From Erwinia tracheiphila (lineage in GTDB: Bacteria; Pseudomonadota; Gammaproteobacteria; Enterobacterales; Enterobacteriaceae): a stretch of DNA of 64,000 bases. Positions 7,131 through 21,735 of the stretch are shown here, piece after piece. Under the pieces are notes generated by a model. It had not been told where the DNA came from. It searched no databases and saw nothing but the letters and a program-made list of their open reading frames with translations. The position numbers and the translations under genes are program-made. The stretch covers positions 620,001 through 684,000 of the forward strand of contig NZ_CP089932.1 of NCBI RefSeq assembly GCF_021365465.1, written 5' to 3'. Within the stretch, counting starts at the first letter, position 1. Each line of letters opens with the position of its first letter.

Positions 7131-9587
7131 ATGTCAAAAGATCCTTTTCAGGAACGGGAGGCTGAAAAATATGAAAATCCCATTCCGAGTCGCGAATTTA
7201 TTCTTGCTCATCTGGATAAACGCGAAAAACCTGCCAGCCGTGAAGAGCTGGCGGTAGCACTTTCTATTTCCGGTGAAGAGCAGACAGAAGCTCTGCGCCG
7301 CCGCCTGCGTGCCATGGAGCGAGACGGACAACTGGTGTTTACCCGCCGTCAGTGCTACGCCTTGCCGGAACGTCTGGACCTGCTGCGAGGCAAAGTTATC
7401 GGTCATCGTGATGGCTTTGGTTTTTTGCGTGTTGAAGGCAGTAAAGACGATCTTTATCTCGCTGCCGAGCAGATGAAAATGTGCATGCACGGTGATGTTA
7501 TTCTTGCCCAGTCGACGGGTGCCGACCGTAAAGGTCGCCGTGAGGCTCGTGTAGTGCGCGTTCTGGAGCCTCGTAACAACCAAATTGTTGGCCGCTATTT
7601 CACTGAAGCTGGCGTGGGCTTCGTTGTGCCTGACGACAGTCGTCTGAGCTTTGATATTCTTATCCCGCAGGAAGCACTGAACGGTGCGCGGATGGGATTT
7701 GTTGTCGTGGTTGAACTCACGCAGCGACCCACCCGACGCAGCAAGGCAGTGGGGCAGGTAGTTGAGGTTCTGGGCGATAATATGGGCACCGGCATGGCCG
7801 TTGAAATGGCGCTGCGTACCCATGATATTCCTCACGTCTGGCCGGAAGCCTTACAAAACCAGATTGCCACGTTAAAAGAAGAGGTGCCGGAAAAAGCGAA
7901 GGCAGGGCGGGTAGATCTGCGCGACTTACCGCTGGTCACCATTGATGGTGAGGATGCTCGTGATTTTGACGATGCTGTATTCTGTGAAAGAAAACGCAGT
8001 GGAGGCTGGCGTTTATGGGTTGCGATTGCCGATGTTAGCTATTACGTCCGTCCGGGAACGCCGCTGGATGATGAGGCGGTAAACCGTGGAACGTCGGTTT
8101 ACTTCCCGTCGCAGGTCGTACCAATGCTGCCGGAAGTGCTGTCGAATGGCCTTTGCTCACTGAACCCACAGGTCGATCGACTGTGTATGGTGTGCGAAAT
8201 GACGATTTCCGCCACCGGTAAGCTTATCGGTTATAAACATTACGAAGCCGTTATGAACTCTTGGGCGCGACTGACCTATAACAAAGTCTGGAGCATCCTC
8301 CTGGGCGATCAGCCGTTGCGTAAGCAGTATCAGCCGTTTGTCAAAGACCTTGAAGAGCTGCACCGGATGTATCTGGTACTGGAAAAAGCGCGTGAACAGC
8401 GCGGTGGTATCTCGTTTGAAACCGACGAAGCGAAGTTCATTTTTAATGCCGAGCGTCGTATTGAGCGCGTTGAGCAGGTTTCCCGTAACGATGCACACAA
8501 GCTGATTGAAGAGTGTATGATCCTCGCCAATATCGCGTCAGCGCGTTACGTTGAAAAAAATCAGGAACCCGCCTTGTTCCGCGACCACGATCGCCCCAGT
8601 GAAGAAAATATTAAAAGCTTCCGGTCGGTGCTGAATGAGTTAGGGCTGACGTTAGGGGGAGGTCTCAAACCGCACCCGTTGGATTATGCCGCGTTATTAA
8701 TGCAAATTGCCAGCCGTCCGGATGCGGAAATGCTGCAAACCATGCTGCTGCGCTCTATGAAACAGGCGGTTTACGATCCAGAGAATCGTGGACACTTCGG
8801 GCTGGCGCTGTCATCTTATGCCCACTTTACATCGCCCATCCGCCGCTATCCCGATCTGCTGCTGCACCGCGCCATCAAATATTTGCTGGCGAAGGAAAAT
8901 GGTACGCTCGAAGGTAACACCACGCCAACCGGTGGTTTTCATTATGATCTGCAACAGATGCTCCAATTCGGTCAGCACTGCTCGATGACTGAACGTCGTG
9001 CCGATGAAGCGGCCCGTGATGTTGCTGACTGGTTGAAATGTGATTTTATGCAGGACCAGGTGGGTGAAACCTTCACCGGCGTGATATCCAGCGTCACGGG
9101 GTTTGGATTCTTTGTCCGCCTGACCGATCTTTTCATTGATGGTCTGGTACATGTTTCCACACTGGATAATGATTACTATCGCTTCGATGCGATCGGACAG
9201 CGCCTCATCGGTGAGTCGGGTGGTAAAACTTATCGGCTTGGCGACATGGTTAACGTCCGCGTGGATGCCGTGCATATGGATGAACGCAAAATTGACTTTG
9301 CGCTGATCTCAAGCTCCCGTAAGCCACCTGGTGAATGCAAGACTGACCGTGATCGTGTAAAAAAAGAAACCGCGTCAAATCAGGGCAAGTGCAGCCGGAA
9401 CCAAAGTAAAAAGGGCAATTTTGAGCCAGACAGCGCATTTCGTTCTGACCAGGATCGGCAGAGCGCCAGCGCAAACAAAGATAAAAAGGTAAAAAAGCCC
9501 TCGGATAAAACCCGTAAAATTGCCGCCGCCACTCGCTCAAAGCGCGCGGCAAAAAAGAAATCTGATACTGTCGTAAAAAATGACTAA
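7131..9587 (+). CDS. rnr: Exoribonuclease R (RNase R)
   Basis: An 818-residue RNase R, the 3'-to-5' hydrolytic exoribonuclease that degrades structured RNA, rRNA fragments and defective mRNA. In order: a winged-helix N terminus (about 20-80); cold-shock domains (about 85-240); the RNB catalytic domain with the metal-binding [11 protein letters not shown] motif; an S1 domain (GEVFTGVIS-like, about 640-725); and a Lys/Arg-rich tail. The tail is long and basic as in E. coli RNase R. A clear ribosome site (GGAGG, about ten bases before ATG) supports the start. rlmB follows after 15 bases, suggesting cotranscription. Confidence 0.97.
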
Positions 9588-17521: not shown

Positions 17522-18142
17522 ATGACAACCCCTTCTTTTGACAGCGTTGAAGCGCAAGCAAGTTACGGTATCGGTTTACAAGTCGGTCAGCAGCTGCTGG
17601 AATCCGGACTGGAGGGGCTGCAACCTGAAGCATTGTTGGCTGGCCTGTGTGATGCGTTGGAAGGGAACACTCCTGCAGTACCTGTCGATGTGATTCATCG
17701 CGCCCTGCGCGAAGTTCATGAGCGTGCAGACGTGGTACGCCGTGAACGTCAGCAGGCGATGGCGGTTGAAGGACAGAAATATCTTGAAGAAAACAGCAAG
17801 CGTGATGGGGTCAGCAGTACTGAATCAGGCCTGCAATTTAGTGTGATTTCTCAGGGGGACGGTGCAATTCCTTCGCGTCAGGATCGTGTTCGCGTTCATT
17901 ATACTGGCAAGTTGATCGATGGTACCGTTTTTGACAGTTCCGTGCAGCGCGGTGAACCGGCAGAATTCCCGGTCAGTGGTGTTATTCCAGGCTGGATTGA
18001 AGCATTAACGTTAATGCCAGTGGGTTCCAAATGGCAGTTAGTTATTCCACAGGATTTGGCCTATGGTGAGCGTGGTGCAGGAGCATCAATTCCGCCTTTC
18101 AGCACCTTAATCTTTGAAGTAGAGTTATTGGAAATTATTTAA
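17522..18142 (+). CDS. fklB: FKBP-type peptidyl-prolyl isomerase (FKBP22)
   Basis: A 206-residue FklB, the same length as in E. coli. The N-terminal dimerisation helices begin [20 protein letters not shown]. The FKBP domain is at about 95-206, with [28 protein letters not shown] and [20 protein letters not shown]. It catalyses cis-trans isomerisation of prolyl bonds, in cytosol or periplasm. I moved the start to the ATG after GGAAAA because the upstream in-frame extension has no homology. A strong terminator follows. Confidence 0.96.
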
Positions 18143-18317: not shown

Positions 18318-18346
18318 TTGACATTTGTTTTATCGTGAAATATATT
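18318..18346 (+). promoter_or_regulatory. Consensus sigma-70 promoter for the microcin-like gene
   Basis: A perfect -35 (TTGACA, 18318-18323) and a -10 of TATATT (18341-18346) are separated by 17 bases, about 65 bases upstream of the microcin-like start codon. Confidence 0.75.
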
Positions 18347-18416
18347 TTTAACGCTACTCAGGAAGTAGTAAATGATCGTAATACATTGACTGTAAATATA
18401 AACTAAGGGAATGACT

Positions 18417-18695
18417 ATGCGTGAGTTAAATAATGTAGAAATTGAATCAGTATCTGGTGCATGGCTGTTTGCAGATATTGGTGCAGCTATTGGGTATGGC
18501 GTGGGTGCGCTGATCAATAAAGGCGCATCCAAAGGTGGTGTAACCATCGACACTACTACAGCTTCATCGCAGATTGGTTCAGGCATTGGTAAAATTGTCG
18601 AATTAAACCTCTCTGGTGCAGTAAGCGATATTGGTAAAGGTATTGTAGGCTTGGCTTCTGCTTTAACAGGCGCTAAAAATCAGATCTCTGCATAA
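18417..18695 (+). CDS. Orphan class II microcin-like bacteriocin precursor
   Basis: A 92-residue precursor. The first 15 residues, MRELNNVEIESVSGA, are a classical double-glycine-type leader of the MccV/MccL/MccN kind (MRxLxxxEIxxVSGA), predicting cleavage after SGA by a C39-peptidase ABC exporter. The remaining 77 residues are rich in Gly, Ala, Ser and Ile, with glycine-spaced hydrophobic stretches (IGAAIGYGVGALI, then VSDIGKGIVGLASALTG), and have no cysteine. That fits a membrane-active unmodified microcin. A second ATG six bases upstream is possible. The gene has its own promoter, an AAGGGA ribosome site and a terminator. No exporter and no obvious immunity gene is adjacent; the small hydrophobic gene remnant at 18903 is the only near candidate. 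The mature sequence matches no microcin I know. Confidence 0.78.
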   Translation: MRELNNVEIESVSGAWLFADIGAAIGYGVGALINKGASKGGVTIDTTTASSQIGSGIGKIVELNLSGAVSDIGKGIVGLASALTGAKNQISA

Positions 18696-18736
18696 TGCCT
18701 CTGGCTGATATTTTAAAAAATATTAGCCAATAAAAT

Positions 18737-18772
18737 AAAACCAGCCTTTGATTATTTAAGGCTGGTTTTTAT
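18737..18772 (+). terminator. Microcin gene terminator
   Basis: AAAACCAGCC / GGCTGGTTTTT forms a stable stem with a T run. A second weaker hairpin lies just before it (18703-18728, GGCTGATATT / AATATTAGCC). Confidence 0.85.
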
Positions 18773-18902
18773 TTTTTCTTGATTTGTTTTTTGAAAAAAG
18801 TCCGTTTCGATACATTCTGTGTTGGTTCAGATTATGATTAACCCTGTTAAAGAAGTACCAATATACTCTGTGATAAAGATTATTCACTAACTTAGAGCAC
18901 GT

Positions 18903-19061
18903 ATGGATATGGCTGAAGAATCGGGTGGAACTTATTTTTATTATGGACACGTAACTCTGACCCGGCATGAACTTTTTAACCTAATTTTCCTCGAAAGTTT
19001 TACTGATCACCTGAACCTGGAGATTACCGCCGCTGCGCTTATTTTGTCAGGTCAGCGATAG
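18903..19061 (+). pseudogene. N-terminal piece of the GTYFY-type membrane protein (piece 1)
   Basis: A 52-codon frame, MDMAEESGGTYFYYGHVTLT then HELFNLIFLESFTDHLNLEI, ending with a hydrophobic ITAAALILSG. It is clearly paralogous to the frame at 20440 (shared GTYFY and the SEM/HELF-(I/N)IF pattern). From memory, full-length relatives continue for about another 80 residues and end in a YNxIAR...DKLW tail. Such tails occur separately in this window at 3307 and 48991. The piece has no strong ribosome site. It lies 130 bases after the microcin terminator, so a link to the microcin (for example immunity) cannot be excluded. Confidence 0.5.
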
Positions 19062-19550
19062 TTAACTACAAGGCAAAAACCTGAAATGACCAGGATAGAC
19101 ATTCGCATTGCTTCCATCGTCTCAGGATGCGTTCTGACGTATGTTCACCTGTCTGAAGGTATGATAATTCCCAGCATAATTGGTGACCAGCTTTGTACAA
19201 CAAATAAACCCGATGCCCTGATAGTAATCATATATAAATCAGTTAATTAATACACCAGACAGTTGGTGGATATTTAATGCTTAACTGTCTGCTGTATCTA
19301 CTTTTTGATTGCGTTATGCGCCAAGGTAGGGAGTATGCCAGACAGTAGTTGGCACTTAAAATGCTAAATTCCTATAACTTAATGAATTAAATGGGAAATA
19401 TTTCTTTGGTAAACAGACACTTAAACGCATAAATTTTATTTTTCTGAATTTAGTTTTTGTTTGGGTGCTACTAAACACATTCCTGAATGAGAGAGATTAC
19501 TTTTGAGAAAATGCAATTCATCTGTGCCACCTGGACCTGAGTGATCTAAG
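19062..19550. other. AT-rich intergenic stretch
   Basis: No convincing gene, RNA or repeat is visible. The sequence is markedly AT-rich compared with the housekeeping blocks and ends where the degraded IS5-family element begins. Confidence 0.4.
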
Positions 19551-20398
19551 AGCCTGTCCCAAAAGGCGTCATCGTATAATGCATCCCGGTCATATCTGAG
19601 GGCAAAGTATGGCAGGCGGTAAAGGGCAGATTAGCGATGAACTCCGGGACAAAATGGCCCCGCTTATCCCGGAACACAAAACCCGCCATCCTCCGGGTAC
19701 ACGCCGAAAACGTGTTGATAATCGGGCCGCAATGAACGCCATTTTCTTCGTCCCCAGCACAGCCTGTCAGTGGAATGCACTCAATGCCACAGGGATAGGT
19801 TTATCAGATTCTGCGCACCGACGCTTCCGGGAACGGATAGACGCAGGTGTCTTCGGGCGTTTCTGGCAGAACGGATCACTGGCCTGTGAGCACCCGGACG
19901 GCACGGACTGCTCATGGATGGCGGTATGACAACATCACCGCTGTCAGGGACAAAAAACAGGACGCAACACCACGGACAGAGGGAAACAGGGCGTAAAGCC
20001 CAGTCTGATGACAGATACCGGAGGGCTTCCTCTGTCACGGGGCGTCGCAGCAGCAGACAGGCATGACATCAAACTGGTGCCGGACACACCCGGTGCTCTT
20101 CAGACGGGGCGTCCGGGGGCAAAAAACCGTACTCTGCCCGGACAAAGGCGACGAAGCACCCGGGCAAAACAGACCGGTTGAGCCGTCGTGACGAACCTTA
20201 TATCCCGCCCCGTAAAGAGGAATGAGATGCCAGTAAACCACGAACTTCAGGGCCAGTCACCGGGTCGTCGGGAGGACGCACAGCCGGATGAACCGGTTTC
20301 GCCGGCCCCTGACCCGACGGGAAAAGACGCCTGAGAATGACGGGGTCCTGTTGCGTTTTTCCTGTGGTCTTATTGTCTGGAATAACGTTCTGTTGATA
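19551..20398 (+). pseudogene. Degraded IS5-family transposase
   Basis: The start at 19609 reads GGKGQISDELRDKMAPLIPE and later RRKRVDNRAAMNAIFFV, typical of the IS5/IS1031-type transposase N terminus (DUF4096). From 19770 on the frame is broken repeatedly. Scraps such as ADRHDIKLVPDT-like and a final CGLIVWNNVLL-like segment near 20380 show that the gene was once full length. Unusually many changes are C/G substitutions. No right-hand inverted repeat was found. Confidence 0.65.
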
Positions 20399-20439
20399 CA
20401 GGCGCTAAGATGGGGATAAATCATTAGCAAGGAGCATGT

Positions 20440-20550
20440 ATGGATACGGTTGAACAACTTAACGGAACATATTTCTACGCTGGCAGATCAAATCTGAGCG
20501 TAAGTGAAATGCTTTTCATTATTTTCTGCGAACTGCTCTTAACCACGTAA
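20440..20550 (+). pseudogene. N-terminal piece of the GTYFY-type membrane protein (piece 2), cut by IS3
   Basis: The frame MDTVEQLNGTYFYAGRSNLS continues with VSEMLFIIFCELL and then runs into the right end of the IS3 remnant. It is preceded by a good ribosome site (AAGGAG, six bases before ATG) and resembles the piece at 18903. Insertion of the IS3 element broke the gene after about 32 residues. Confidence 0.55.
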
Positions 20551-20960
20551 TGTGGACATGGCCCTAAGCGAGGTTATGGTTTTCAAATTGTTCCGGGCTG
20601 AGTCCTCCACAAGCACTGTGGCGACGCCAGCGATTGTAATCGCACCCGATATAATTAAACACCGTCCTCCGCATTATTTCCCGACTGGCAAAGCTTTCTC
20701 CGTGAATACATTCCACCTTCAGCGAGTGAAAGAAGCTTTCCACGCAGGCATTGTCATAACCGCAGCCTTTTGCGCTCATGCTCCCGCGCAGATTATGCCG
20801 TTTCAGTAAGGTATTATCATCCGATGAGCAGTACTGTCCTCCACGAACCGTGTGAATAATAACATTTTCCGGGCGTTTACGCCGCCAGAGCGCCATTTGC
20901 AATGCATCACACGTAATGGGGTGCTTTATGATGGCCTGCTCCCCGTTGATAAGCATAATG
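20551..20960 (-). pseudogene. IS3-family transposase OrfB, C-terminal remnant
   Basis: About 125 residues of an IS3-group Orf[41 protein letters not shown] with [13 protein letters not shown], and [17 protein letters not shown]. The catalytic Asp expected in the HSDRGSQYCS context is replaced by Val ([10 protein letters not shown]), so it is dead as well as truncated. Its 5' portion is missing. The IS1 copy at 20970 lies directly at the break. Confidence 0.85.
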
Positions 20961-20969
20961 CGATGTTAG

Positions 20970-21735
20970 GGTCGTGACGCAGACTTGCTGATCACGTATG
21001 CTTTGCGCTTTGGATGTAACATATGGCTAAAGTTGATGTCGTCTGCCCTCAGTGCAATGAAACTCATGCTGTACGATGTAACGGACATTCAGCATCCGGT
21101 GCCCAACGTTAGATCTGCAAGCATTGTTCAAAGACCTTTCTGCTCAACTTTAGCTACTCCGGTGCCAAACCAGACACACACCAGACCATTGTTAATATGG
21201 CCATGAATGGTTACGGATGTCGCGATACCCCACGGGTTCTCGGTATCAGTCTCAATACGGTTCTGCGGCACGTAAAAAAATTTCCCCAAAGCAGGTAGCT
21301 GAGAATATCGACCCCGAAACGGAGGTTGTTATCTGCTGTGAAGCCGGTGAACAATGGTCTTACGTGCGGTGTAAAAGCAATCCCCGGTGGTTGTTCTATG
21401 CTTATGACCGTATCCGCAAACGTGCTCTGGCCCACGTCTTCGGCCCGAGAAATGCCCCGACCCTGCGACGATTGCCGGCCCTGTTAAGCAAATTTAACAT
21501 TGCCTTTTATATGACAGATGCGTGGCCGGTTTATAAAGTTCTGTTAAGTGCAACAGGCCACGTGGTGAGCAAGAAATATACCCAACGGACAGAACGACAT
21601 AATCTTAATCTTCGCACACATATCAAACGACTGACCCGCAGAACAATTTGCTTTTCGAAGTCAGAGGAAATGCACGATAAGATCATCGGTTGGTATCTTA
21701 CTCTTCATCATTATCAATAAATCTGCGTCACGACC
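20970..21735 (+). mobile_element. IS1-family element, copy 1, with 9-bp target duplication
   Basis: A 766-bp element with terminal repeats GGTCGTGACGC / GCGTCACGACC and a perfect 9-bp direct repeat CGATGTTAG at 20961-20969 and 21736-21744, as expected for IS1. InsA (from 21023) carries a nonsense mutation: the Tyr codon of QRYICKH reads TAG. This copy should therefore be immobile unless helped. The InsB' part (to 21720) is open and contains the DDE core, including FYMTDAWPVYKVLL. Confidence 0.92.

Follow-up and report, generated by a model that had tools for sequence, protein, structure and literature searches.

Class II microcins are described as leader-bearing peptides that function with a PCAT, an MFP, TolC and a cognate immunity protein (PMC9746304). 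The authors of cinful stated in the same article that a specific immunity protein is perhaps not universal, and reported hits in 40.0% of the Erwiniaceae species (PMC9746304). A 2026 study of Pantoea, Erwinia and Xanthomonas filtered its candidates to 159 (191 unique ones according to a figure legend) and assayed 23 of them, with some inhibition of E. coli observed with 12 (PMC13174018). As the filter is described in that article, the exporter genes could be located anywhere in the genome and adjacency was not required. Therefore, the peptide described below may already figure among those candidates. Immunity genes were sought beside the peptide both in work on Serratia microcins (PMC13101503) and in a protein-language-model search (PMC11494933), as their search procedures are outlined. 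Erwinia has already yielded published class II microcin candidates, and the new part of this report is the dispersed arrangement with no immunity gene. A literature search that left most subscription journals outside its reach found no report of a lone, immunity-less arrangement by fklB.

The DNA analyzed here, referred to as the window, is a stretch of 64,000 nucleotides from Erwinia tracheiphila (G000:C1:620001–684000) that includes a small gene for a microcin-like precursor (Table 1). Its product is comparable to the class IIa microcins (MccV/CvaC): they share a 15-amino acid leader ending in GA, a small hydrophobic mature part, a genome containing C39, HlyD and OEP/TolC genes and, by eye, the lack of a C-terminal Gly/Ser-rich tail. 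Unlike them, the window protein, a candidate microcin, scores below the Pfam MccV cut-off and is free of cysteine. While class II microcins usually have clustered exporter genes and an immunity gene nearby, the window gene has neither. The class IIb microcins differ further, since the window peptide ends in AKNQISA, with no Gly/Ser-rich motif, and inspection by eye of the listed ORFs surrounding the gene revealed no siderophore-modification gene. The Erwinia and Pantoea class II candidates come from the same host group and have the same kind of leader; however, the picks for testing, as reported, favored nearby exporter or immunity genes, and the six hybrids that the authors discuss carry two cysteines and lie next to candidate immunity ORFs, neither of which applies to the window gene (PMC13174018).

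Results and Discussion

An earlier note on this DNA, made from the letters and their ORFs, described an MccV/MccL-type leader followed by a Cys-free, Gly-rich segment of 77 residues, in a one-gene unit with its own promoter and a strong terminator. All these features, computed directly, were borne out. The positions are listed in Table 1. A second in-frame ATG is located upstream, at 18411, but the spacing of the AAGGGA sequence fits the ATG at 18417, which was taken as the start. A strict leader pattern, applied to the 253 ATG-started frames of 60–130 amino acids in the window, selected this ORF alone (from both its starts) and none of the 7,899 equivalent frames from 40 first-order simulated windows. 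The leader is beyond chance. It ends in GA and is kept along the family alignment. Glycine accounts for 19% of the mature part. The Pfam MccV profile produced a weak match that spans residues 1–43 of the window protein (15.8 bits, E 0.02, cut-off 27).

Table 1. Features of the precursor gene and its surroundings (positions in the window)
Feature	Position	Strand	Basis
fklB-like gene, conserved upstream neighbor marking the site, outside the unit	17522-18142	+	name recognized from sequence
Promoter, -35 TTGACA 18318-18323, 17-nt spacer, -10 TATATT 18341-18346	18318-18346	+	scan; shared motif in relatives
Ribosome binding site AAGGGA	18405-18410	+	read from sequence
Precursor gene, 92 aa + stop	18417-18695	+	ORF list; relatives; within-type dN/dS
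Leader, 15 aa, MRELNNVEIESVSGA, predicted cleavage after GA	18417-18461	+	alignment, chance control
Mature part, 77 aa, Cys-free, GxxxGxxxG motif	18462-18692	+	composition; AlphaFold2
Terminator, two hairpins, T run after second	18702-18775	+	folding

The promoter, with 11 of 12 consensus matches, ranked at the top of the 11 promoter-like sites found when 3 kb were scanned; the shuffled 3 kb had a mean of 6.1 such sites. Of the 19 Erwinia members of the family, 14 have the sequence TTGAC[A/T] between −105 and −55, compared with a mean of 0.63 and a maximum of 5 in 2000 shuffles. None of the five genes of the G355 array described below has it. When 24 upstream regions were compared with the plain sigma-70 consensus, the mean score (9.3 of 12) was only slightly higher than that of the shuffles (8.6). 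The argument is therefore carried by the shared −35 motif rather than by overall promoter strength. Folding of the 90 nucleotides at 18696–18785 produced two hairpins with −31.5 kcal/mol (z = −7.3), and none of 200 shuffles was equally stable. This terminator is missing from the pattern-scan list, probably because its loop is 9 nucleotides long.

Relatives were found in 12 of 36 genomes of the genus Erwinia, own genome included, and in none of 24 other genomes when 60 genomes were searched with the single sequence. A contig scan with the single sequence detected one relative; the whole-genome and profile searches reached further. A profile made from 18 members (a 19th, the frameshifted copy of genome G033, was left out of the alignment) matched 15 of 37 genomes of the genus, the three additional matches (G029, G006 and G014) being weak. 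In a wider sample of the GTDB family, the same profile matched 54 of 392 genomes, which belong to 34 of the 154 genera. Among the weaker matches, many span little beyond the leader. The cluster of the window protein in a protein collection consists of two member sequences found on 62 contigs, with relatives at E about 1e-32. The leader is intact in the 18 aligned homologs. Where relatives carry a name, it is “hypothetical” or “uncharacterized” and in one case “Bacteriocin”, in no case that of an unrelated proven function. That the gene is a chance ORF is practically impossible: the frame is short and its relatives are mostly hypothetical or uncharacterized, but the conservation, with dN/dS below 0.3 within types, and the simulated leaders refute it.

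Three unlinked members are present in the E. tracheiphila genome: the window gene, G000:C1:4172352 (97 amino acids) and G000:C1:3997224 (88 amino acids). The score of the last one equals the cut-off of the Pfam MccV profile (27.0 of 27), and 16 of the 18 family members match this profile at E of 1 or below. The profile of the lactococcin G-alpha/enterocin 1071A family (NF038035) had weak matches in seven of the 18 members (best E 3e-4) and none in the window protein itself. This is a family of two-peptide Gram-positive bacteriocins. No paired peptide was seen near the window gene. In a search for plasmid or phage carriage, there were no phage matches and one weak plasmid match (Klebsiella).

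No C39 or other exporter gene is adjacent to the window gene, the nearest C39 gene being about 164 kb away. The earlier note had made its case depend on such an exporter elsewhere in the genome, and two C39-peptidase ABC exporters were found, both full length, with all three expected Pfam domains and an HlyD partner each. One of them, L025 (G000:C1, 474.7 kb), is in an operon with genes for HlyD and an OEP/TolC protein, with no leader-like ORF found by the leader pattern within 5 kb. The L025 C39 protein matched structures named “ABC-type bacteriocin transporter”, which we take to be PCAT1, at E about 1e-104. The second, L024 (1621 kb), consists of C39 and HlyD genes alongside a leader-bearing repeat peptide. 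This peptide (L024 5338–5634, + strand, about 1619 kb) has a GG leader and four copies of DAIRAGSG, is encoded just upstream of the HlyD-C39 pair, and has a Pfam match below threshold only (Ntox47, 14.2 of 25 bits).

C39 genes were detected in 32 of 37 Erwinia genomes, comprising all 12 peptide-positive and 20 of the 25 negative ones, a non-significant difference (p = 0.15). A tree was made with 58 of the 65 C39 places; the seven omitted were mostly short or broken frames, with one in a 1,112-amino acid frame. The clade that includes L025 (15 members) was represented in 10 of 12 peptide-positive and five of 25 negative genomes (p = 7e-4, with a post hoc grouping that is uncorrected for kinship), and an inner group of eight came from peptide-positive genomes throughout. 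Two positive genomes without this clade, G026 and G019, have in common a different exporter pair (L112 and L115), and no leader-like ORF was found near either exporter. The negative genomes G034, G011, G006 and G032 have L025-clade exporters with no clear peptide beside them. In G033, G027, G029 and G013, leader-bearing peptides are encoded directly downstream of L025-clade C39 genes, and at L171 and L174 more distant family members are located directly upstream of HlyD-C39 genes.

The window leader shares 9–12 of its 15 positions with the first peptides of G033, G027, G029 and G013, 6 with the second G033 peptide, 8 with the L024 peptide and 7–9 with peptides that belong to six other exporters. 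The leaders of the two other E. tracheiphila members show no such preference for the clade. L025 is thus the likelier exporter of the window peptide, although the support is modest. Export in trans by one of the C39 systems is, as a step by itself, quite likely from these genomic data.

Six L025-clade exporters (L076, L077, L085, L093, L095 and L105, in genomes G033, G002, G027, G003, G013 and G029) are located upstream of chaperone-usher-like fimbrial genes, with leader-bearing peptides in between in four of them. The fimbrial genes are presumed to be such by recognition of their sequences.

The window gene is located next to a gene that we take to be fklB, and the names cpdB, DoxX-family and yqjG-like given to other neighbors are also presumptive, by recognition from sequence. 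The fklB gene had a single match per genome in the 37 genomes of the genus, the other 36 being 87–93% identical. In all 12 positive genomes, a copy of the family gene is found downstream of fklB, facing cpdB, and/or beside the DoxX-family gene, with the yqjG-like gene on the opposite flank in four of the eight DoxX-side copies. Thirty of the 37 fklB sites were inspected, 11 with a family gene and 19 with none. The leader pattern missed the G013 copy, which was recognized from the neighbor survey. The distance from the fklB stop to the first aligned end of cpdB was 602–1012 bp in 10 of the 11 occupied sites. At the gene-free sites, the gap was 44–109 bp in 13 and 216–227 bp in two, and cpdB was not found in four. 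These gap sizes indicate that the islet is a discrete unit that is present or absent.

The arrangement extends to other genera. In G355 (genus g154), five leader-bearing paralogs surround fklB (L160 6813–11488), two upstream and three downstream, and no other recognizable gene was seen among them. A member on the fklB side was also found at L162 (G288, genus g154) and L163 (G146, genus g111). Distant members in genera g123 and g177 (L167 6634–6921 and L177 6405–6716) lie between genes that, by the look of their sequences, are presumably rsmG and atpI, a further fixed site among housekeeping genes. Between species, the flanking DNA produced BLAST matches only 36–76 bp long; the near-identical pair G002-G035 has flanks alike throughout, unlike other pairs. 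The orphan position appears to be the rule of the family and not a product of decay.

In E. tracheiphila, no cpdB was detected up to about 1.5 kb from fklB. The region after the peptide gene (window 18903–21720) has ORF fragments with no Pfam match, followed by IS-like ORFs; two fragments considered as a lost partner (18903–19061 and 19086–19250) were discarded for lack of a Pfam match. Two transposase-like ORFs that closely resemble each other lie near family genes of this genome, one some 1 kb away from the window gene (window 19609–19929) and the other some 7 kb away from the second member (L026 695–1093).

Substitution rates were compared within types, where dN/dS was about 0.07–0.28 in seven of eight pairs, with dS near-saturated in some. 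The other pair, G002-G035 (dN 0.03, dS 0.02), gives purifying selection no support. Within types, these ratios indicate purifying selection on the coding sequence. Among the copies at the fklB site, mean identity was 92.4% for FklB, 66.1% for the leader and 41.6% for the mature part (45 pairs from ten of the 11 genomes with such a copy; G023 was left out). The low ratios together with a mature part that changes faster than FklB point to a real gene with a rapidly changing, toxin-like mature part.

The earlier note had left two readings, either a stranded relic or a novel microcin that depends on an exporter encoded elsewhere. If the gene were the remnant of a lost microcin cluster, neither made nor exported, its orphan position, the L025 operon with no recognized peptide gene, the IS-like ORFs and cpdB loss downstream, and the frameshifted relative in G033 (the only copy at the fklB/DoxX sites of that genome, interrupted near the leader/mature junction, L039, about 7480–7813, DoxX side) could all be accommodated. 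However, low dN/dS within types, the conserved −35 motif, the terminator and a cluster present on 62 contigs do not agree with a relic, nor does the recurrence of the lone position at fklB, in 11 of the 30 Erwinia sites inspected and also in genera g154 and g111. A relic is thus very improbable, and the reading with a remote exporter is the better supported of the two, considering the C39 exporters, the kept leaders, the purifying selection, the fixed site and the −35 motif.

The statement that no immunity or exporter gene adjoins the precursor agreed with the ORF list, the neighbor survey and a count of membrane-like ORFs. No TM-like ORF of at least 45 amino acids was found beside the window gene. 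In the flanks of 23 family genes (18 from Erwinia and the five from G355), four adjacent membrane-like ORFs of at least 45 amino acids were found, three of them distinct because array neighbors share stretches, compared with 4.6 expected from mononucleotide shuffles. The lack of enrichment of such ORFs would be directly explained if the secreted peptide did not kill but had a role in signaling, at the surface or in biofilms, exported by the same C39 machinery. The fixed housekeeping sites, the −35 motif common to most Erwinia members and the six L025-clade exporters upstream of fimbrial-like genes are compatible with a role of this kind. On the other hand, toxins are a better fit for a mature part that diverges fast behind a conserved leader and for up to five paralogs at one site, and the weak family matches are to bacteriocin families (MccV and lactococcin G-alpha/enterocin 1071A). 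We consider a non-killing role rather unlikely.

AlphaFold2, run with the 18-row alignment, predicted one helix for the leader and three for the mature part (residues 17–39, 47–61 and 65–91) with a mean pLDDT of 84.6 and a pTM of 0.70. The motif GxxxGxxxG is present in the window protein and in 16 of the 18 members overall, while it occurs in 26% of shuffled mature parts. A Foldseek search of the PDB produced no match at E of 0.001 or below; an alpha-pore toxin subunit in the top row (E 4, probability 0.06) was discarded as a fold relative. A profile search of the PDB sequences produced one match only, at E 0.92. The closest glycine-zipper analog found, compared by description, seems to be CdzC/CdzD of Caulobacter crescentus, small hydrophobic GxxxGxxxG peptides secreted by a type I exporter (PMC5380434). 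The prevalence of the zipper in the family raises the alternative of a contact-dependent bacteriocin of this sort, aggregated on the surface of the producer. Nevertheless, the Cdz exporter, the two peptides and the immunity gene cdzI are described as clustered, and the leaders as RTX-like and not double-glycine (PMC5380434), whereas neither an exporter nor an immunity gene adjoins the window gene. A Cdz-like mode of action is improbable.

Conclusions

The reading that we prefer, a reasonably likely one on the genomic data, is that the window gene encodes a glycine-zipper microcin-like peptide that is exported in trans and is probably antibacterial. The peptide would be ribosomally made, probably unmodified and class IIa microcin-like. 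It would be transcribed from its own promoter, and its GA-type leader would be recognized by a remote C39 exporter, most likely that of the TolC-HlyD-C39 operon (G000:C1, about 474 kb), which the three family members of the genome would probably share. Cleavage after GA would release a helical glycine-zipper peptide that may act on the membrane of competitors. As for self-protection, a dedicated immunity protein may be needless or may be encoded elsewhere.

As a more tentative proposal, one that we hold as possible, the microcin-like islets of the Erwiniaceae, each a single gene, would make up a dispersed arsenal. Most would have a common promoter type; they would come and go at the fklB-cpdB and DoxX sites, lack immunity genes and use a shared C39 exporter in trans. 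Mining, as its procedures are described, favors candidates near immunity or partner genes (PMC9746304, PMC13174018), and a family with no such neighbors would tend to be overlooked. The finding also suggests that C39 exporters with no adjacent peptide may be retained for unlinked cargo. The family provides candidate peptides from plant-associated bacteria, including a wilt pathogen, and raises the question of how a producer survives its own peptide. If the proposal is true, the dispersed islets would represent a class of exported antibacterial peptides with no dedicated linked immunity gene.
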